From Chloroflexota bacterium (GTDB lineage: Bacteria; Chloroflexota; UBA11872): DNA of 64,000 nucleotides. How positions within the stretch are numbered: the stretch's first letter is position 1; the number at the start of each line of letters is the position of its first letter. The notes beneath the pieces were generated by a model. It did no database searches, was not told where the DNA came from, and was given only the letters and a program-made list of their open reading frames with translations. This document shows, piece after piece, positions 6,296 through 16,480 of this stretch. The stretch is from the NCBI GenBank assembly GCA_026708035.1, contig JAPOVQ010000019.1:1-64000 (forward strand). The letters are read 5' to 3'. Position numbers and translations under genes: made by a program.

Positions 6296-7960
<1,665 letters not shown>

Positions 7961-8153
7961 GCTGTCGTTCCTCCGACCAGCCCGTTATCGGTGCATGCGC
8001 GTCGGGGCCTCTCGCATTCTGCCGGCGAGGGCGCCCGACGCCACGGCAAGGGCTTTGGGGTGTCTTGGTGCGAATTGCGCACTAGGTCCGTCCGCAAAAT
8101 TGTAGGGAGCGCCCAAGTCGAGCGTCAAGCATGATTGGCCAGCGCGGCGCCCG

Positions 8154-8882
8154 TTAGCGCTCCGGCGCCTCGAGTTCGCCGATCCGCTCGAAGTCCGCCC
8201 ACCACTCCACGTCGTCGGGCAGGTCGGAGATGTGCAGCACGACCTCGCCGGGGGTGAAGACGGCCATCCGCTCCCCGAGGTCCTGGGCCCCTTCCCTGTC
8301 AGCGGCGACGTAAATGTGCGCCCAAGTGCTGCCCGACCAGCCCGCACCGCCCCTGCCGTTGACGCTATTGAGGTTGACGGTCGGGATGTTGCCGACCTCC
8401 GGCGGCGCGTAGTCGGTGAATCGCACGTCCACGATCCACAGGCCCTCGGAGAGCAGCTCGACCGGCTCCGATGGCTCGGGGCCGGTCCCGCGGATTTGCG
8501 TGGAGGTCTGCGTGACGGTGGTGGTCGATTCCGTGAAGCCGCGACCCAGCTCGCTCGGTGGGAGCTCGCGCGGGTCAGCGTCCTCGACCGGGACCTCACG
8601 AACCCTTTCGATCTCACGAACCACGGCGGAAGACGTGAAGCCGCCCTCCACGGTCTCGACCGGGACTTCGCGAATCACTTCTGATATCACGATCTCGGCG
8701 TCCGACGTGAACTCCGAAACTTGACTCGTGGCCAGCTCGAAGAATTCCCCGGCCAGGGTGTAGGTGTGCAGCGTCGCAAAGTGGTGGGCGGCCGTGAACA
8801 ACGCCGTCGCTGAAAGCGCTCCGGCGATCACCACGGCGGCCAGCGTCAGCAGGCCGCGCTCGATGCGACTGAGATGTTCCAT
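8154..8882 (-). CDS. Membrane-anchored protein with EVPVE stalk (module 1)
   Basis: This gene encodes 242 residues of unknown function. Residues 8-33 form a membrane anchor (GLLTLAAVVIAGALSATALF). The following region contains REVPVE-type repeats (VIREVPVETV, VREVPVEDAD). The C-terminal 100 residues form a likely beta domain (ELLSEGLWIVDVRF to GEVVLHISDLPDDVEWWADF). It is clearly paralogous to the 211-residue protein at 9927-10562 along its whole length. GGAAGGAG precedes the ATG. A perfect 15-bp stem hairpin lies just upstream of the ribosome-binding site. It is the last gene of a module that starts with two hydrophobic micropeptides. The predicted topology puts the beta domain outside the cell. 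Confidence 0.75.
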   Translation of the reverse strand: MEHLSRIERGLLTLAAVVIAGALSATALFTAAHHFATLHTYTLAGEFFELATSQVSEFTSDAEIVISEVIREVPVETVEGGFTSSAVVREIERVREVPVEDADPRELPPSELGRGFTESTTTVTQTSTQIRGTGPEPSEPVELLSEGLWIVDVRFTDYAPPEVGNIPTVNLNSVNGRGGAGWSGSTWAHIYVAADREGAQDLGERMAVFTPGEVVLHISDLPDDVEWWADFERIGELEAPER

Positions 8883-8907
8883 TGGGATTGCTCCTTCCGT
8901 TAAGTCA

Positions 8908-8944
8908 GCGAAGGGCGGGGACGATCCGCGTCCCCGCCCTTCGC
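8908..8944 (-). promoter_or_regulatory. Strong hairpin in the 5' leader of the 242-residue gene
   Basis: A perfect 15-bp stem (GCGAAGGGCGGGGAC and its complement) with a 7-base loop ends 26 bp before the ATG at 8882 and about 10 bp before its ribosome-binding site. It could attenuate, protect or regulate the transcript. On the minus strand no T run follows, so it is not a classical terminator. Confidence 0.6.
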
Positions 8945-9065
8945 TTGGCGCCGCTCGTTCACCCGTCTCACGGTGGCCGCGAGGACGTCGGTGGAAATTG
9001 GGCCGTCACGGCGAGGATCGGCGCACGGACGAGCCTTCCAGGCGCCGCGCCTCGCCGCCGCGTCT

Positions 9066-9137
9066 TCACGGCGGACGTTTCCGTAGATTCAGCACGGCCG
9101 GCAGGACGACGATCAATGGCCGCTCAATCGGGCCCAC
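9066..9137 (-). CDS. GPIE-type micropeptide, degenerate copy
   Basis: A 23-codon frame from GTG 9137 encodes MGPIERPLIVVLPAVLNLRK and ends three residues later. It occupies the same relative position as the 29-residue GPIEFLII peptide at 10587-10676, directly after the 30-residue peptide gene, and shares the GPIE core and hydrophobic helix. The frame is short and Pro-containing, so it may be a decayed copy. A ribosome-binding site is not obvious. Confidence 0.35.
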   Translation of the reverse strand: MGPIERPLIVVLPAVLNLRKRPP

Positions 9138-9140
9138 GAC

Positions 9141-9233
9141 TTACCCCGCGACGCCCGCGCTGGCAACGGCGGTAGCCGCCAGCCAGATTCCCACGACGAT
9201 CAAGGCCATCGCTCCGAGAAGACGGCGTCTCAT
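9141..9233 (-). CDS. 30-residue hydrophobic micropeptide (module 1)
   Basis: This small gene encodes MRRRLLGAMALIVVGIWLAA followed by TAVASAGVAG: three N-terminal arginines and a single membrane helix. AAGGAG lies 6 bp upstream of the ATG, so translation is credible. A homologue of the same length lies at 10680-10772 (M-K/R-RRLL, WLAATAV, SA-AG conserved). The genes have the same order in both places: micropeptide, GPIE peptide, EVPVE membrane protein. The function is unknown; a membrane micropeptide partner or a signal-type peptide are possibilities. Confidence 0.6.
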   Translation of the reverse strand: MRRRLLGAMALIVVGIWLAATAVASAGVAG

Positions 9234-9312
9234 GGTCGGGCTCCTTTTCCGGTCCGTCCCACCGGGCCCGCGGGACCGGAAACCCGCCGGCCCGACGCGC
9301 CTCGGCTACGAG

Positions 9313-9552
9313 TCATGACGACCGATGGACTCGGAACGTGCGCCACAGCGCCACGACCCCCGCGATCACCAGGGGGATGCCGAGCGCCACGGCGAGTCGC
9401 TGAGCGGTCGGCAGGGTGATCGGCAGTCGGGAGCCGGGCACGGGGTCGATTGGATCTTGCGCGCCTAGACGCGCGCCGAGACAGGCCAAGAGGAGCACCG
9501 CCACGATTCCGCCGCCGACCACGGCCCGTGCACGAGTGAGTACGTGAGGCAT
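9313..9552 (-). CDS. Small two-helix membrane protein
   Basis: This gene encodes 79 residues with two predicted membrane helices: AVVGGGIVAVLLLACLGARL and LAVALGIPLVIAGVVALW. The ATG at 9552 is preceded by AGGAGGAAGGAGG. The upstream region and first 26 codons are duplicated at 12388-12403 and beyond, where the second copy stops after 29 residues. It is divergently transcribed from a decayed copy of the 12526 gene. The function is unknown. The second helix and basic C-terminus place both ends on the same side of the membrane. Confidence 0.6.
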   Translation of the reverse strand: MPHVLTRARAVVGGGIVAVLLLACLGARLGAQDPIDPVPGSRLPITLPTAQRLAVALGIPLVIAGVVALWRTFRVHRSS

Positions 9553-9674
9553 CGGGGCCTCCTTCCTCCTGGCGATCGTCGTTGACCACCTATCGGCACC
9601 GTAGCTCGCAGAATTCCATATAGCAACTCCGTCGTCAAGGTTCTTACACAGATGTCGGGTGCTATCGTCGCGGC

Positions 9675-9810
9675 ATGCTGTCGCGTGTTGAGCGGGCGTC
9701 TATTTGACCACGGCGCTGGTGGTCATTGTGGCGATCCTGTGGCCGCTGGTCCGCGATGAATTGGACCGCGCGCCGCTGGTTCAGCTAGCGCCACCGCCCG
9801 CAGCGACGGC
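9675..9810 (+). pseudogene. Frameshifted remnant of the 12526-13008 gene
   Basis: The sequence from ATG 9675 encodes MLSRVERA, then, after a one-base loss, continues in another frame as YLTTALVVIVAILWPLVRDE and LDRAPLVQLAPPP. This parallels the start of the intact gene at 12526 (MLSRFERVVYLATALVVIMA, ILWPLVRDELDRAPL). Homology ends around 9810, where the opposite-strand peptide at 9781-9900 takes over, so the C-terminal domain is gone. Confidence 0.75.
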
Positions 9811-9900
9811 GATCACGACGATGGCGATGACGGACAACGCCATCAAGGGGATGATCAGGAACTCAATCGGGCCCAGCTCCTTGTCAATCGTGCACCCCAA
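9781..9900 (-). CDS. GPIE-type hydrophobic micropeptide
   Basis: A frame of up to 39 residues contains DKELGPIEFLIIPLMALSVI followed by AIVVIAVAAGGGAS. The LGPIEFLII core is identical to that of the 29-residue peptide at 10587-10676. The start is uncertain: TTG at 9900 is the only standard start in frame, without a good ribosome-binding site, and an AAGGAG sits inside the frame. It lies directly downstream of the 211-residue membrane protein. It is possibly a decayed copy, although the hydrophobic helix is well preserved. Confidence 0.45.
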   Translation of the reverse strand: MGCTIDKELGPIEFLIIPLMALSVIAIVVIAVAAGGGAS

Positions 9901-9926
9901 AGCCACCCACCGCCCACCGGCGCCCG

Positions 9927-10562
9927 TTAGCGCTGGGGCATCTTGAGTTCGCCAAGTCGCTCAAACTCCACCCACCAGGCGACATCGTCCGGAAGGTCCG
10001 AGATCTGAACCACGACCTCACCGGGTGCAAACACGGCCATCCGCTCGCCCAGGACTTGCGCCCAATCGCTGTCGGCCGTGACATAGAGGCGATTCCACCA
10101 GTCCTCCGACCAGGCGACTCCGCCATCGCCGCTGATGCTGGTCACGCTCACGCTCGGGAATGGCTCTACGTCCGGCGGCTCGTCGTCCACGAAGCGAACG
10201 CTGACAAGCCATAAGCCCTCGGACAGCAGCTCGAGTGGCTCTGTGGGCTCCGAGCCGACACCGTCAATACTCCGAAACTCCTGCGTGACGGTGCTGGTCA
10301 TCTCCATGGAGCCGCGAATGGGGCGCACGGGGACGCTCTCAACCGGGACTTCCCGCACCACCTCTGTCACGAGCCGAGGCTCGCTCGTAAACTCCCCCAC
10401 CTGGCCCGTGGCCAGCTCGAAGAAATCCCCGGCCAGGGTGTAGGTGTGTAGCGTCGCAAAGTGGTGGGCGGCCGTGAACAACGCCGTCGCCGACAGGGCT
10501 CCGGCGATCACCACGGCGGCCAGCACCAGCAGAACGCGCTCGATCCGGGTGAGGTGCGTCAT
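9927..10562 (-). CDS. Membrane-anchored protein with EVPVE stalk (module 2)
   Basis: This gene encodes 211 residues paralogous to 8154-8882. The anchor VLAAVVIAGALSATALFTAA is almost identical, and the stalk contains VTEVVREVPVESVPV. The C-terminal beta domain runs from ELLSEGLWLVSVRF to GEVVVQISDLPDDVAWWVEF. It is shorter than its paralogue because the stalk has fewer EVPVE repeats. A weak AGTGAGTG precedes the ATG at 10562. It is the last full gene of a compact chain with the 166-residue protein and the two micropeptides upstream. The function is unknown. Confidence 0.75.
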   Translation of the reverse strand: MTHLTRIERVLLVLAAVVIAGALSATALFTAAHHFATLHTYTLAGDFFELATGQVGEFTSEPRLVTEVVREVPVESVPVRPIRGSMEMTSTVTQEFRSIDGVGSEPTEPLELLSEGLWLVSVRFVDDEPPDVEPFPSVSVTSISGDGGVAWSEDWWNRLYVTADSDWAQVLGERMAVFAPGEVVVQISDLPDDVAWWVEFERLGELKMPQR

Positions 10563-10586
10563 CGGTCACTCACTTTCGTTTGTGGC

Positions 10587-10676
10587 TCAGCGTCGAAAGC
10601 CGCGCCATATCACGGCACCGACGATGAGCGCCAGAACCAAGATGATGAGGAACTCGATCGGTCCCAGGTGCTCCAT
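10587..10676 (-). CDS. 29-residue GPIE-type membrane micropeptide
   Basis: This gene encodes MEHLGPIEFLIILVLALIVG then AVIWRGFRR: one membrane helix and a basic C-terminus. It starts 3 bp after the stop of the 30-residue peptide and ends 24 bp before the 211-residue gene. The GPIE..LII helix superficially recalls the TatA N-terminus, but the FG hinge and amphipathic helix are absent, so I do not call it TatA. Related frames lie at 9781-9900 and 9066-9137. Confidence 0.6.
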   Translation of the reverse strand: MEHLGPIEFLIILVLALIVGAVIWRGFRR

Positions 10677-10679
10677 GGC

Positions 10680-10772
10680 TTACCCGGCGATGCTCGCGCT
10701 GACCACGGCCGTTGCCGCCAGCCAGACCCGGACGACCATCAGGGCTGTCGCGGTGAGGAGTCGTCGTTTCAT
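10680..10772 (-). CDS. 30-residue hydrophobic micropeptide (module 2)
   Basis: This gene encodes MKRRLLTATALMVVRVWLAA followed by TAVVSASIAG, homologous along its length to the peptide at 9141-9233. TAGGAG, formed by the stop of the upstream 166-residue gene, lies 7 bp before the ATG, so the two genes are probably translationally linked. It has a single helix with an Arg in the middle (VVRVW), unusual for a membrane-spanning segment. Confidence 0.62.
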   Translation of the reverse strand: MKRRLLTATALMVVRVWLAATAVVSASIAG

Positions 10773-10782
10773 GGTGAATCTC

Positions 10783-11283
10783 CTAGCTGCTCGCATAGTC
10801 GCCGGGGCACACCTGCCGCCGAAAGTCCACGACCCACGCCTCGTCGGTGTCCACGCTCAGCGTCATGGGCCCCGCCGGCAGGACAGGCGTATCGACGATC
10901 CTCGCGCGATCCGCCTCGTCGAGGGGCAGGACGCTGATCACGTTCTGGATGCCCGTCCAGGTCCTGATGACGGGTCGCACGTGGCTGGCCAGCGTCACGG
11001 GATGTTCCTCGCCGCCGCCGCCCAGCACCTGCCATACCCCAGGGCCCAACTCGATGGTCACTTCCTCGCCGGGATCGCCTTCAATGTGCTGGTTGCCGTC
11101 AAGCACGATCGACTCGACCTCGATCGGGTCATTGGAATATCCGGTTTGCGCGAGCCGCGTAAACGTTCGCCGCTGCAGCTCGGCGCCGACGGCGTCGAAG
11201 ACGACGGCGGCGCCGATCAGCACCAGAGCGAGGGTCGCCACCGTCATGGCGGTGGCGGTCAGCGTGGGTCGTGGTAGGCGCAT
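10783..11283 (-). CDS. Membrane-anchored protein of unknown function
   Basis: This gene encodes 166 residues with one N-terminal membrane helix (MTVATLALVLIGAAVVFDAV) and an extracytoplasmic beta-rich domain. The pattern LGPGVWQVLGGGG to LPAGPMTLSVDTDEAWVVDF matches the layout of the C-terminal domains at 8154, 9927 and 12526 (hydrophobic-G-aromatic strand; P-G turn; final strand with D/E..W..F), suggesting distant paralogy. GGAG precedes the ATG. It heads the run of micropeptide genes. Confidence 0.6.
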   Translation of the reverse strand: MRLPRPTLTATAMTVATLALVLIGAAVVFDAVGAELQRRTFTRLAQTGYSNDPIEVESIVLDGNQHIEGDPGEEVTIELGPGVWQVLGGGGEEHPVTLASHVRPVIRTWTGIQNVISVLPLDEADRARIVDTPVLPAGPMTLSVDTDEAWVVDFRRQVCPGDYASS

Positions 11284-11617: not shown

Positions 11618-12223
11618 CTAGAGCCACTCCGACTCGTAGGTGACCTCGCTGTCGGTGACGCCGTCCCCGTACTGCTCTTTCCAGATCTTGGTGATGTCAA
11701 GAACGTTCACGCAGTCCTGAAGCGGGGGGCAGAGGCGGAATTTCCCACGCCCCGTGTCCTCGTGGTAGTTGTGGCCAACCCCGCCAGCCGTCGTCTCCAC
11801 ATGGTCGTCATAGGCGGTCCACGGCCAATTGACGGAATCGATGTCCCCGGTGACTTCCTTCCAGGTCAGGATCTTGGTCGTGTTGTTCGCGCACCAGAGG
11901 GTCTTGGTCCAGTAGGAGCCCTTTTCATCCGAGTGGCGGAGATAGTGCGACCAGCAGGTCTGATGATGCATCAGCCAGTCGCCCGGTACGAGATTCGCGT
12001 CGATCTCTTCAACCGTCGACACGACCGTCAGACCATCGTGTGTCACGCGAATGGTCGTGCCCACTTGCTGATCGTCGATCGTGACTATCGGCTTCCCCTC
12101 AGCATCGCGGCTCAAGGTCACGTTTTCGGGGATCTCGCCCGATGGCGTCTGCGCCCCGGCGGTCCCAACGCCGAAGACCGCGAGCACCAGCAGCAGGCTG
12201 AGTCGCAGGGCGAGTTTTTTCAT
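11618..12223 (-). CDS. Secreted protein of unknown function
   Basis: This gene encodes 201 residues with a clear Sec signal peptide (MKKLALRLSLLLVLAVFGVG, cleavage near TAGAQ). The mature part begins with a small beta region (VTLSRDAEGKPIVTIDDQQV) and continues with a Trp/Cys-rich region (HHQTCWSHYLRHSDEKGSYW; LWCANNTTK; FRLCPPLQDCVN), whose four cysteines could form two disulfides. The open frame extends upstream, but ATG 12223 has GAGGAGA just before it and starts the signal peptide. No family is recognised. Confidence 0.7.
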   Translation of the reverse strand: MKKLALRLSLLLVLAVFGVGTAGAQTPSGEIPENVTLSRDAEGKPIVTIDDQQVGTTIRVTHDGLTVVSTVEEIDANLVPGDWLMHHQTCWSHYLRHSDEKGSYWTKTLWCANNTTKILTWKEVTGDIDSVNWPWTAYDDHVETTAGGVGHNYHEDTGRGKFRLCPPLQDCVNVLDITKIWKEQYGDGVTDSEVTYESEWL

Positions 12224-12313: not shown

Positions 12314-12403
12314 TCAACGTCTCGCGACCAAACAGGCCAAGAGGAGCACCGCCAGGATTCCGCCGCCGACCGCGGCCCGTGTGCGGGTGAGTACGTGAGG
12401 CAT
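12314..12403 (-). CDS. Truncated paralogue of the two-helix membrane protein
   Basis: This frame encodes MPHVLTRTRAAVGGGILAVL followed by LLACLVARR, then a stop. The first 26 residues match the 79-residue protein at 9313-9552, and the upstream DNA is also duplicated. It has lost the second helix. With 29 residues and a good upstream AGGAAGGAGG it could still be translated as a membrane micropeptide, or it is a decayed copy. Confidence 0.5.
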   Translation of the reverse strand: MPHVLTRTRAAVGGGILAVLLLACLVARR

Positions 12404-12525
12404 CGGAGCCTCCTTCCTCTAGGCGATCGTCATTGACCACCTATCGGCACCGTAGCTCGCAAAAATTCATCTATCAACTAGCTCCTAAAGAACTTTTCAC
12501 TGTTATGAGGTAATATCGTCGCCTC

Positions 12526-13008
12526 ATGTTGTCTCGATTCGAGCGGGTCGTGTATTTGGCTACAGCACTCGTAGTCATTATGGCGATCCTGTGGCCGCTG
12601 GTCCGCGATGAGCTGGACCGCGCGCCGCTGGCGCCCCTGGCGGAACCGCTGGCGTTGGCGCCCCCGGCCGCGAGCGCCAGCGCGCCCTTCCCATCCTTTG
12701 GCGCCGAGAACGTCAACATCAGCGGCGTCGGCCCCGACTCACAGACGCTGGAGCTTGGCGCCGGCGTCTACGTCGCCTTGGTTTACGGCGACACAACGGA
12801 CCTCGACGTGACCATGCGAACCCTCGACGGGCGCAGCACCATGACCTGGGGCCAAACGACGCATGCGTCGTTTGCGGTGGGCGATCACGTCGAGGCCTCG
12901 CTCTATCCGGGGCCGACGCGCATCGACGTCGTCCCACCAACGGATTTCACCCGATGGGGCATCCGGTTCGAGCGCTATGCCTATCCGGAATCGGAGGCGC
13001 GCCCCTAG
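12526..13008 (+). CDS. Membrane-anchored protein of unknown function
   Basis: This gene encodes 160 residues with an N-terminal membrane helix (VVYLATALVVIMAILWPLVR), an Ala/Pro-rich linker (residues 35-60) and a beta domain with LELGAGVYVALVYG and PTRIDVVPPTDFTRWGIRF. The domain shares its strand/turn layout with the proteins at 8154, 9927 and 10783. A frameshifted copy of its start lies at 9675. It is divergent from the truncated micropeptide at 12314. No ribosome-binding site stands out; GAGG lies 17 bp upstream. Confidence 0.65.
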   Translation: MLSRFERVVYLATALVVIMAILWPLVRDELDRAPLAPLAEPLALAPPAASASAPFPSFGAENVNISGVGPDSQTLELGAGVYVALVYGDTTDLDVTMRTLDGRSTMTWGQTTHASFAVGDHVEASLYPGPTRIDVVPPTDFTRWGIRFERYAYPESEARP

Positions 13009-13112: not shown

Positions 13113-13550
13113 ATGCGCCTGTCCATGCGAAGCGACTACGGGGTCCGCGCCCTCACGGACCTCGCGATGCACCACGGGCAAGGACCGATCCAAAGCGCGG
13201 ACGTGGCGCGGCGCATGTCCATTCCGCCGGTGTACCTGGACCAGGTGTTCAGCGCGCTCCGCAAGGCCGGGCTGGTGCGCAGCACGCGCGGACCGCAGGG
13301 CGGCCACGAGCTGGCGCGCGGACCCGATGCCATCACCATGAGCGACATCGTCACCGTGCTCGAAGGCCCGCTGCCGATCCTCGATTGCCTGGAGGACGCC
13401 TCGGCCTGCGACTTGACGGACACGTGCTCGCAGCGACCCGTGTGGGGGCGCGTGCGGACAGCCATCCTGACCTCGCTCGAGGCGGTCAGCCTGGCCGAGC
13501 TGGCCGTCGACATGCAGGAAGCCCGCGAGCGGCCCGCCTACAGCATCTAG
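13113..13550 (+). CDS. Rrf2-family transcriptional regulator, probable Fe-S sensor
   Basis: This gene encodes 145 residues. The N-terminal winged helix is typical of Rrf2 proteins (MRLSMRSDYGVRALTDLAMH; IPPVYLDQVFSALRKAGLV; STRGPQGGHELAR). Three cysteines in the segment DCLEDASACDLTDTC are positioned like the cluster ligands of IscR/NsrR-type members, so an Fe-S or nitrosative-stress sensor is likely. Two bases separate its stop from the next gene, forming an operon with a JAMM peptidase and LarE, which points to sulfur metabolism. Confidence 0.9.
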   Translation: MRLSMRSDYGVRALTDLAMHHGQGPIQSADVARRMSIPPVYLDQVFSALRKAGLVRSTRGPQGGHELARGPDAITMSDIVTVLEGPLPILDCLEDASACDLTDTCSQRPVWGRVRTAILTSLEAVSLAELAVDMQEARERPAYSI

Positions 13551-13552
13551 CC

Positions 13553-13987
13553 ATGCCCTTGCAGATCACCCGCCGCCAGCTGGACGACATGGTGGCGCAC
13601 GCCCGCGACGAGGCGCCCCTGGAGTGTTGCGGCATCATTGGCGGCACGGGCGACCGCGCGCACGCGACCTTCCGCACGCGCAACATCGACCAGAGCCGGG
13701 TGCACTACACGATCCATCCCGAGGACCACTACCGGGTCACGCGCGAGATCGAGGACGTGCGCGAGTGGGACGTGCTCGGCTTCTATCACTCCCACCCCGC
13801 GAGCGAGGCGTTTCCCTCCGCCACCGATCTCCGGCACGCGCTGGAATCGGGCTACAGCGAGGTCTCGCGCTTCGTGATCGTCTCGCTGGCGGATCCGAGC
13901 GCTCCCGTGGCGCGCTCGTTTTGGCTCACGGGCGGGGAAATTGACGAGGAGCTGCTGGTGATCGTCTCGGAGGAGGGCGCCGATTAG
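13553..13987 (+). CDS. JAMM/Mov34 metalloprotease, CysO-cysteine peptidase-like
   Basis: This gene encodes 144 residues. The zinc-binding JAMM motif is complete (HSHPASEAFPSATD, i.e. HxHPx6Sx2D, plus an upstream Glu in DEAPLECCGIIGG). Small bacterial JAMM proteins such as Mec of mycobacteria release cysteine from a ubiquitin-like sulfur carrier; that is the likely but unproven role. The frame is open further upstream, but ATG 13553, just after the Rrf2 stop, starts the conserved fold (LQITRRQLDDMVAHA). The neighbour LarE also handles sulfur transfer. Confidence 0.85.
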   Translation: MPLQITRRQLDDMVAHARDEAPLECCGIIGGTGDRAHATFRTRNIDQSRVHYTIHPEDHYRVTREIEDVREWDVLGFYHSHPASEAFPSATDLRHALESGYSEVSRFVIVSLADPSAPVARSFWLTGGEIDEELLVIVSEEGAD

Positions 13988-14021: not shown

Positions 14022-14864
14022 ATGGCCGTCGACGCCCCGCTCGACGACAAGCTCGACGCGCTGCGCGACAGCCTGCGGCGCATGGCGCGGGTGGTGGTGG
14101 CCTATTCCGGCGGCGTGGACAGCAGCCTGCTGGCCAAGGTCGCGCACGACGTCCTCGCCGATGAGGCGGTGGCCGTCACGGCTCTTTCAGCCAGTCTGGC
14201 CGAATCCGAGCGTGTCGAGGCGGCGGCCGTAGCGGCGGAGATCGGCATTCGCCACGAACTGATCGTGACGCATGAGCTCGAAAACGCCGACTATCGCCGC
14301 AACGACCGCATGCGCTGCTTCCACTGCAAGGCGGAGCTGTTCGACTGCCTGCAACGCTACGCCGACACGCATGGGATTCCCTACATGGTCTACGGCCCGG
14401 TGGTGGACGACCTGGGCGACTTCCGTCCGGGCATGGCCGCCAGCCGGCAGCGCGGCGCGCGCGCGCCCATGGTGGAAGCCGGGCTGCGCAAGGCCGACGT
14501 GCGCGAGCTGGCCCGCCGCTTCGACCTGCCAACCTGGGACAAGCCGGCGCAAGCCTGTCTCGCCTCGCGCGTGGCCTATGGAACGGAGGTGACCGTGGAG
14601 CGCCTGAGCCAGGTCGAGCGCGCCGAGGCGCTGCTGCGGGCCGAAGGACTGCACGAGCTGCGCGTGCGCCACCACGACGCCATCGCCCGCATCGAGGTCC
14701 CCGCCGACGCGCTGCCGCGGCTCGTGGACGACCCGGAGCGCCGCCGTCGGATCGTCGACGGCATCAAGGCGCTCGGCTTCGCCTTCGTCACGCTGGACCT
14801 GGAGGGCTTCCGCTCAGGTTCGATGAACGAGGCGCTGCCGCTCGCCGACCAAGACGCGCCGTAG
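14022..14864 (+). CDS. larE: ATP-dependent sacrificial sulfur transferase LarE
   Basis: This gene encodes 280 residues. The PP-loop motif VVAYSGGVDSSLLAKVAHDV is at residues 27-46, followed by MRCFHCKAELFDCLQ and the conserved DKPAQACLASRVAYGTEVT. The Cys of that last segment corresponds to the residue that donates its sulfur in Lactobacillus LarE. LarE adenylates and sulfurises the carboxylates of the nicotinate-based precursor of the nickel-pincer cofactor used by lactate racemase-type enzymes. LarB, LarC and LarA are not in the window. It follows the JAMM gene by 34 bp on the same strand. Confidence 0.92.
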   Translation: MAVDAPLDDKLDALRDSLRRMARVVVAYSGGVDSSLLAKVAHDVLADEAVAVTALSASLAESERVEAAAVAAEIGIRHELIVTHELENADYRRNDRMRCFHCKAELFDCLQRYADTHGIPYMVYGPVVDDLGDFRPGMAASRQRGARAPMVEAGLRKADVRELARRFDLPTWDKPAQACLASRVAYGTEVTVERLSQVERAEALLRAEGLHELRVRHHDAIARIEVPADALPRLVDDPERRRRIVDGIKALGFAFVTLDLEGFRSGSMNEALPLADQDAP

Positions 14865-15193: not shown

Positions 15194-16480
15194 CTATCCG
15201 GGATTCCTCGGCAACTGCACCGTCATTTCGGTGTATTCGCCGGGCCGGGACTCCGGGACGATCTGCCCGCCGTGCTCCCGGACGATCTCGTGGGACAGCG
15301 TCAATCCCAGCCCGGTGCTCCGGCTGCTTTCCTTGGTGGTGAAGAAGGGGCTGAAGATCTTGGCCGTGACCTCGGGCGACATGCCCACGCCGTTGTCGCG
15401 GATTGCCACCTCAACGCCCTCGGCCGTTCGTCGACTCCCGATCCGCAACTCGGGCGCGTAGTCGTCACCGTCGAGCCCCGCCCGCTCCGCCACGGCGTGG
15501 CAGGCGTTGGCCACCAGGTTGGTGAACACGCGGGCCAGGTCCTCCGGCACCGCGACGATCGGGCCCACGTCCGGGTCCAACTGCTGGCGAATCTCAACCG
15601 TGAACCCGGGCGTTTGGGCCTGCGCGGCTTGGTAGGCCAGGCCGGTCTGCTTCGCCAGGAGGGGATTCAGGTCCACCGGCTCGAAGGACCCCGCGCCACG
15701 CCGTCCCATCGCCAGCAAGTCCGCGATGATCCGGTCGGCGCGTTCGCTGTGCATCACGATGCGCCGCATGTTCTCCACCAGGTCCTCGGTCAACTCGTCC
15801 GCCGTCTCGAGATCGCCGTCGTCGGGCTGCTCGGGCGCTTCCTTGATCTGACCGGCGATGACTTCGGAATTCGCGGCGAAGTTGCGGATGAACTGCAGCG
15901 GATTGCGGATCTCGTGCGCCACGCCGGCGGACAGCTCGCCCAGCTCCGCCAGCTTCTGCTGGCTGACGATGCGGTCCTGGCTCTTCCGCAGCTCGTCCAG
16001 GGTGTCTTCCAGCGTGGCGTTCTTTTCCTGCAGCTCGTCGGACAGCTTCTGCACCAGGTCGAGCTGCATGGCCCGGATGGAGCTCTGCCGCAGCGTCTCC
16101 AGGGCCAGGCAGGCCTTGGACACCTCGTCGTTGCCCCGGGGCTCGATGCGGTACTCGAAATCGCCCATGCCCAGGCGGCGAATCCAGATCTCCACCGCCA
16201 CGGTTCGAATGCCGACGTGGAGGACCAGCGCCGTCATGGCGAGCGTCAGACCCAGCAGCGCCCCGGCAAGGACGATGAGGACGGTGTTCCCGTGGAGCGC
16301 GGCGACGACGTTGGTGCCGACCAGAAGCCCGATCACCGTGAAGAGCAGCACCATGTGCTGCACCGAGTAGCGCCGGATGGAGAACGTCGACAGCCCGAAC
16401 GGGTCGTTGCGTTCCAGCGGCTGGTCGGAGATCGGGTCCGGGCGGTTCATCGGGTCATTCTCTTCGGGGTCCTTGCGCAT
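15194..16480 (-). CDS. Membrane sensor histidine kinase
   Basis: This gene encodes 428 residues. Two membrane helices (VQHMVLLFTVIGLLVGTNVV and LIVLAGALLGLTLAMTALVL, residues 40-90) are separated by only a few residues, so no real periplasmic sensor domain exists. A HAMP-like region (FEYRIEPRGNDEVSKACLAL), a coiled coil and a HisKA box with the phospho-acceptor His (GVAHEIRNPLQFI) follow. The ATPase domain shows the N box (NLVANACHAV), G1 (DNGVGMS), F box (FSPFFTTK) and G2 (GLGLTLS). No response regulator is adjacent, so it is an orphan kinase. It is divergent from a 42-residue membrane peptide. Confidence 0.92.
   Translation of the reverse strand: MRKDPEENDPMNRPDPISDQPLERNDPFGLSTFSIRRYSVQHMVLLFTVIGLLVGTNVVAALHGNTVLIVLAGALLGLTLAMTALVLHVGIRTVAVEIWIRRLGMGDFEYRIEPRGNDEVSKACLALETLRQSSIRAMQLDLVQKLSDELQEKNATLEDTLDELRKSQDRIVSQQKLAELGELSAGVAHEIRNPLQFIRNFAANSEVIAGQIKEAPEQPDDGDLETADELTEDLVENMRRIVMHSERADRIIADLLAMGRRGAGSFEPVDLNPLLAKQTGLAYQAAQAQTPGFTVEIRQQLDPDVGPIVAVPEDLARVFTNLVANACHAVAERAGLDGDDYAPELRIGSRRTAEGVEVAIRDNGVGMSPEVTAKIFSPFFTTKESSRSTGLGLTLSHEIVREHGGQIVPESRPGEYTEMTVQLPRNPG

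Follow-up and report, generated by a model that had tools for sequence, protein, structure and literature searches.

Tandem units for membrane and surface proteins in a Chloroflexota genome: a selected 30-residue peptide and a putative structured leader RNA

Small single-span membrane subunits of the KdpF, CydX, and AcrZ kind are known from bacteria. Their nearest counterpart here is a 30-residue peptide that is encoded twice upstream of groEL in the window, that is, the whole 64,000-nucleotide stretch analysed (positions 1 to 64,000 of contig JAPOVQ010000019.1, Chloroflexota bacterium assembly GCA_026708035.1). Like those subunits, the peptide has about 30 residues and one hydrophobic span, is conserved, and is encoded within a unit for membrane proteins; unlike them, it matches no sequence model in Pfam or NCBIfam, has no assigned partner protein, and lies in a variable neighbourhood. 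The units are preceded by a putative leader RNA, which is comparable to leaders that sequester the Shine-Dalgarno sequence (translational riboswitches and RNA thermometers) in that a covarying hairpin lies over the Shine-Dalgarno sequence and start codon and in that it is found ahead of several related genes. In contrast to these, it has no Rfam match or assigned ligand or trigger, and its constraint continues into the first 24 codons.

The remaining products of the units invite two further comparisons. The N-terminal segment of TatA has a short L-G-x-x-E motif followed by an isoleucine/leucine-rich span, and the protein has an amphipathic helix and an FG hinge. The second small peptide of the units (the GPIE peptide) also has a short N-terminal L-G-x-x-E and an isoleucine/leucine-rich span, but it lacks the amphipathic helix and the hinge and does not match the TatA Pfam model at E up to 1. 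Similarly, the larger anchored proteins resemble archaellins and type IV pilins in having an N-terminal hydrophobic helix followed by a beta-sandwich, but they have no prepilin-type N-terminal cleavage motif, and a fold search was not significant.

The best explanation, to which we assign a probability of about 0.5, is that two units stand in tandem in the window and belong to an array for membrane and surface proteins that is specific to the genus, duplicates, and decays, with the leader as its control and the micropeptides as partners. The fuller unit consists of a divergent beta-domain gene, the leader, a lipobox-type open reading frame (ORF), anchored beta-sandwich proteins, the 30-residue peptide, and the GPIE peptide. 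Two such units lie upstream of groEL in the window, and copies, many of them decaying, are present at other loci. The 30-residue peptide was analysed by profile search, Shine-Dalgarno check, and codon analysis, and its two copies in the window are:
10680..10772, minus strand: 30-residue membrane peptide, copy 1, behind the Shine-Dalgarno sequence TAGGAG
9141..9233, minus strand: 30-residue membrane peptide, copy 2, behind the Shine-Dalgarno sequence AAGGAG

The initial annotation had described two 30-residue ORFs of equal length with ribosome-binding sites, and both are present as described. A profile built from three copies found 12 matches (E 1e-11 to 1e-19) in all six genomes of the genus, identical in length except for one of 29 residues, and none at E <= 1e-4 in the remaining 295 of 301 Chloroflexota genomes; nothing was found in the viral contigs searched. 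The peptide has an N-terminal KRR, one membrane span as read from its sequence, and a conserved ASAGIAG end. The ratio of non-synonymous to synonymous differences (pN/pS), pooled over pairs, is 0.33 in the true frame (codon bootstrap 0.21-0.49), whereas both remaining forward frames exceed 1.1; the value of 0.42 in one reverse frame is expected, because third positions mirror each other. The coding parts of the copies share 80% ungapped identity; their flanks share 35% on either side and have thus diverged to background. Among 28 codon columns, 24 vary at third positions and nine at second positions. Therefore, purifying selection acts at the protein level to maintain the peptide. Its ORF of about 30 codons is under selection, encodes a single hydrophobic span, and is predicted to be translated. 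The earlier proposal that such tiny proteins exceed chance was to be judged by whether the peptides are present elsewhere and under codon constraint; both tests were run, and for the 30-residue peptide the proposal holds (12 copies, six genomes, pN/pS 0.33).

Two other functions could be served by a peptide of this kind. It could be a small hydrophobic toxin of a type I toxin-antitoxin system (Ldr, Fst, or TisB kind) present in multiple copies, with its neighbours incidental. The length and charge pattern of the peptide, its presence in several copies in each genome, and its narrow distribution fit type I toxins as generally known. However, it sits inside multi-gene units, close behind other ORFs and with its own Shine-Dalgarno sequence, and its unconserved flanks leave little room for an adjacent conserved antisense RNA (an antisense RNA overlapping the ORF was not searched for); we consider this quite unlikely. 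Alternatively, it could be a free-standing signal peptide that is cut after ASA and releases a GIAG-type signal peptide, or that works as a membrane fragment after cleavage. The copies conserve the ASA-G end, and all 12 sequences have A at -1 and A or V at -3, in agreement with the general signal-peptidase rule, but signal peptides usually have a shorter hydrophobic stretch, and this function is improbable.

In the window, candidates for the GPIE peptide are:
10587..10676, minus strand: GPIE peptide of 29 residues, intact, with its ATG 4 nucleotides past the stop of the 30-residue peptide (ORF reading)
9066..9137, minus strand: GPIE relic of 23 residues with a GTG start (comparison of copies)
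9781..9906, minus strand: GPIE-like frame without ATG, a doubtful gene (ORF reading)

Three GPIE peptides had been proposed initially. Only the copy at 10676-10587 is intact, whereas that at 9137-9066 is a relic with a broken hydrophobic core and that at 9906-9781 lacks an ATG. A GPIE-like start or its trace follows the stop of the 30-residue peptide by 3-12 nucleotides in 9 of 12 copies, and in each of the six groEL-proximal copies the start codon or frame of what follows is degraded. This spacing would fit a third function, in which the 30-residue ORF only governs translation of the gene behind it, as a coupling or leader ORF, and its sequence would be important to the ribosome but not as a product. 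Against this, the ORF persists in G002, G003, G004, and contig C8 of G005, where the following gene has been lost or has decayed, and its constraint is on amino acids while third positions are free, so that a coupling role has little chance of being the explanation.

The leaders, the ORFs that follow them, and the divergently oriented genes beside them are arranged as follows:
12394..12462, minus strand: leader RNA 1, core (extended fold 12464-12329), with the conserved GCGAGCUAC motif and putative hairpins P2 and P3
9543..9611, minus strand: leader RNA 2, core (extended fold 9613-9478)
12314..12403, minus strand: 29-residue ORF MPHVLTRTRAAVGGGILAVLLLACLVARR with a lipobox-like end, the first ORF past leader 1
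9313..9552, minus strand: 79-residue ORF with a lipobox-type signal and a C-terminal hydrophobic segment, the first ORF past leader 2
12526..13008, plus strand: divergent beta-domain protein of 160 residues, facing away from leader 1 (homology search)
9692..9943, plus strand: truncated relic of the divergent beta-domain gene, facing away from leader 2 (E 7e-5)

Upstream of the first ORF of the units, the leader comprises a GCGAGCUACGGUGC motif, hairpin P2, and hairpin P3, the last of which would span the Shine-Dalgarno sequence and AUG. A model from 13 copies retrieved further copies, and a core alignment of 21 copies was then built. In this alignment 91.3% of pair cells are formed, versus 30-56% in slid versions, and there are 20 two-sided changes versus 0-3. 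In P3, 89.5% of cells are paired, and G-C is changed to A-U in 7 of 21 rows. With the core model, at least 22 strong copies were found, in the six genomes of the genus and one genome of the sister genus; weaker matches look like relics or chance. The ORFs behind the copies encode predicted secreted, lipobox, or membrane proteins, and the putative structured leader heads most of the array units found. No Rfam family matched the leader at gathering score, with one search giving none at E up to 1 and a further scan giving only three chance-level matches elsewhere than the leader, and its pattern was not found in the viral contigs searched. The leader therefore appears to be a structured RNA not previously described, with two covarying hairpins, of which P3 is predicted to lie over the Shine-Dalgarno sequence and start codon of the first ORF; the case for this structure rests on covariation. 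A three-way-junction pairing (P1) is not claimed, as several copies fail to keep it, and the long-range pairs proposed by RNAalifold are mostly invariant and thus without covariation support.

Synonymous divergence in the leader-overlapping codons of the lipobox ORF is 0.07-0.13, compared to 0.40 in the 30-residue peptide, and the constraint at the leader reaches into the first 24 codons. Therefore, the overlapping stretch is either constrained as nucleic acid or homogenized by conversion. This admits a different account of the leader, as a promoter or operator DNA element or as sequence kept alike by gene conversion and not an RNA device. P2 could also be a DNA dyad, and the two large genes of the window (for the 211- and 242-residue proteins listed below) are mosaic, with 88% identity over the first 165 nucleotides and 68% over the last 357, from which it follows that recombination between copies occurs at the locus. 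However, in copies that are otherwise diverged, a change in one arm of P2 or P3 is accompanied by a change in the other, with G-U pairs also occurring, whereas gene conversion would make both arms alike and not compensate; additionally, P3 covers the Shine-Dalgarno sequence and start codon. An origin at the DNA level is thus judged unlikely, and a leader that acts as RNA is preferred.

Some individual copies of the leader differ in context. At least one has lost its start codon: G003C20b (locus L168, G003 contig C20) has intact hairpins but ACG in place of the ATG start codon. The sole strong copy in the sister genus (L163, G010 contig C33) precedes a 41-residue hydrophobic ORF and has a further groEL paralogue about 1 kb away on the opposite strand. 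The copies at L170, L172, L173, and L176-L178 are followed by genes for a second group of related proteins, secreted or of lipobox type (e.g. ...PPVLVVPAGEAVRAGDVAPDDVIRYTWD...), with no family assignment.

The larger proteins of the window are:
9927..10562, minus strand: anchored protein of 211 residues, with an N-terminal helix, an REVPVE stalk, and a C-terminal beta-sandwich (homology search, AlphaFold2)
8154..8882, minus strand: anchored protein of 242 residues with two EVPVE stalk motifs (homology search)
10783..11283, minus strand: anchored beta-domain protein of 166 residues, same superfamily (homology search)
11618..12223, minus strand: predicted secreted protein of about 201 residues, start codon uncertain, no confident family

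The two anchored EVPVE-stalk proteins of the initial annotation are thus recovered (10562-9927 and 8882-8154), with one (R)EVPVE motif in the 211-residue protein and two in the other. AlphaFold2 models of four sequences begin with a long N-terminal helix and continue through a disordered stalk to a beta-sandwich of moderate confidence (predicted local distance difference test scores of about 63-83 over residues 95-206). The larger proteins are assigned to one superfamily, whose members have a membrane helix at the N-terminus, a stalk that varies, and a C-terminal beta-sandwich predicted with moderate confidence. More than 30 frames of this superfamily are present in the loci read. It belongs to the genus; the sister genus has a few divergent members, and in the remaining families of the class that were searched no member reached E <= 0.001. 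Foldseek found no match in the PDB below 1e-3, and two matches to a viral library just below 1e-3 were disregarded for their TM-scores of about 0.2. An archaellin identity, suggested by a weak match to 5o4u (E 0.011), was rejected, as the N-termini of A3-A5, read directly, lack a conserved G ahead of the helix together with E at +5, the prepilin-type (class III) cleavage motif. In Pfam, NCBIfam, PADLOC, and PHROGs the array proteins gave sub-threshold noise only, and PADLOC models of anti-phage defence matched 0 of 10 proteins, which agrees with the initial view that no named system has this composition.

The initial annotation described a module of the 30-residue peptide, the GPIE peptide, and an anchored protein that occurs twice and suggests a membrane assembly. 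The repeat is real, but the strict trio is one arrangement among several, and a fixed three-gene assembly is not supported, given the varying neighbours of the 30-residue peptide and the decay of GPIE in the groEL-proximal copies. Upstream of groEL, all six genomes have the 30-residue peptide with a preceding lipobox-type ORF. What follows the peptide there differs: the 242-residue anchored protein in the window, several anchored proteins in G001, and a remnant plus a 170-residue relative in G004, while in G002, G003, and G005 (contig C8) the peptide stands ahead of groEL with no intact anchored protein between. Outside the window, the exact order of 30-residue peptide, intact GPIE, and large protein recurs only at a second locus, in two genomes (contig C11 of the same genome as the window and contig C64 of G001), with a looser version on contig C24 of G002, and the large protein at this locus is a beta-domain protein; on contig C5 of G005, the 30-residue peptide comes behind an anchored protein and lacks GPIE. 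In the sister genus, the readable groEL flanks have no such array, and most carry an MFS-like gene. These differing neighbourhoods indicate that the module is a variable array subject to gain, loss, and decay. Because a divergent gene or its relic lies beside both leaders, the repeat is also longer than first described and includes a divergent 5' region. The initial account was thus incomplete, in that it overlooked the leader RNAs, the longer unit, and the lipobox ORF that precedes the 30-residue peptide; the leader together with this longer unit is a stronger novelty than the three-gene module. Separately, an identical 187-residue anchored protein with a PIN-domain-like (VapC-type) gene is common to L009 (contig C27 of the same genome) and L097 (G005 contig C10), and a near-identical stretch is present in the sister genus at L102 (G015 contig C36; 5% contamination in this genome). 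This sharing between two species of the genus and the sister genus reflects either recent transfer or misbinning.

Downstream of the array are:
8099..8128, minus strand: promoter-like site TTGACG-18-TACAAT ahead of groEL
6296..7960, minus strand: groEL

Genomes of the family each have three or four GroEL paralogues, of which this groEL is one, and the ORFs read next to it include no groES. A functional tie between the array and groEL was not adopted, given that groEL has its own promoter-like site, that arrays also occur away from groEL, and that the sister-genus flanks are without the array. On the other side are genes for a Prok-JAB domain protein (13385-13987, plus strand), a PP-loop/NAD-synthase-like protein (14022-14864, plus strand), and a histidine kinase (15194-16480, minus strand).

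Several observations weigh against leader-controlled units with micropeptide partners. The neighbours of the 30-residue peptide vary, and synteny alone does not support a fixed complex with the 211-residue protein; the anchored protein is modelled with moderate confidence, and no structure matches the model significantly. For the leader, the folding energies of single copies (z -0.6 to -3.2) are for the most part not exceptional, the P2 position C29-A44 is unpaired in 9 of 21 copies, and P3 is absent from two divergent copies. The main caveat is that the leader copies are related, so that the covariation counts are not independent.

If the leader-controlled units function as proposed, P3 would repress translation of the first ORF until the hairpin opens in response to a signal, which may be a ligand, a protein, temperature, or ribosome occupancy. 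The unit would then display beta-sandwich domains on stalks at the outward side of the membrane, and the 30-residue and GPIE peptides may be small membrane subunits or modulators of the anchored proteins, in a putative physical membrane assembly.

Named relatives of this organism are the Chloroflexota genomes CO36386bin_13 and RHO3_bin_74. The label RHO3, which belongs to a relative and not to the window, suggests the sponge Rhopaloeides odorabile, and Chloroflexota are abundant in reef sponges (PMC8163846). A more far-reaching proposal, which is tentative and on balance doubtful, is that the leader represents a new class of cis-regulatory RNA that translationally controls a fast-duplicating surface repertoire in Chloroflexota related to sponge symbionts, with the 30-residue peptide as a shared subunit. 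Since the units are rapidly gained, lost, and recombined, selection may act at the cell surface, perhaps through contact with a host or neighbours. Overall, a type of 30-codon gene that is usually dropped by annotation shows clear codon constraint across six genomes, and the leader RNA would tie scattered arrays into one putative regulon and offer a direct handle on the signal by which these uncultured bacteria may switch their set of surface proteins.

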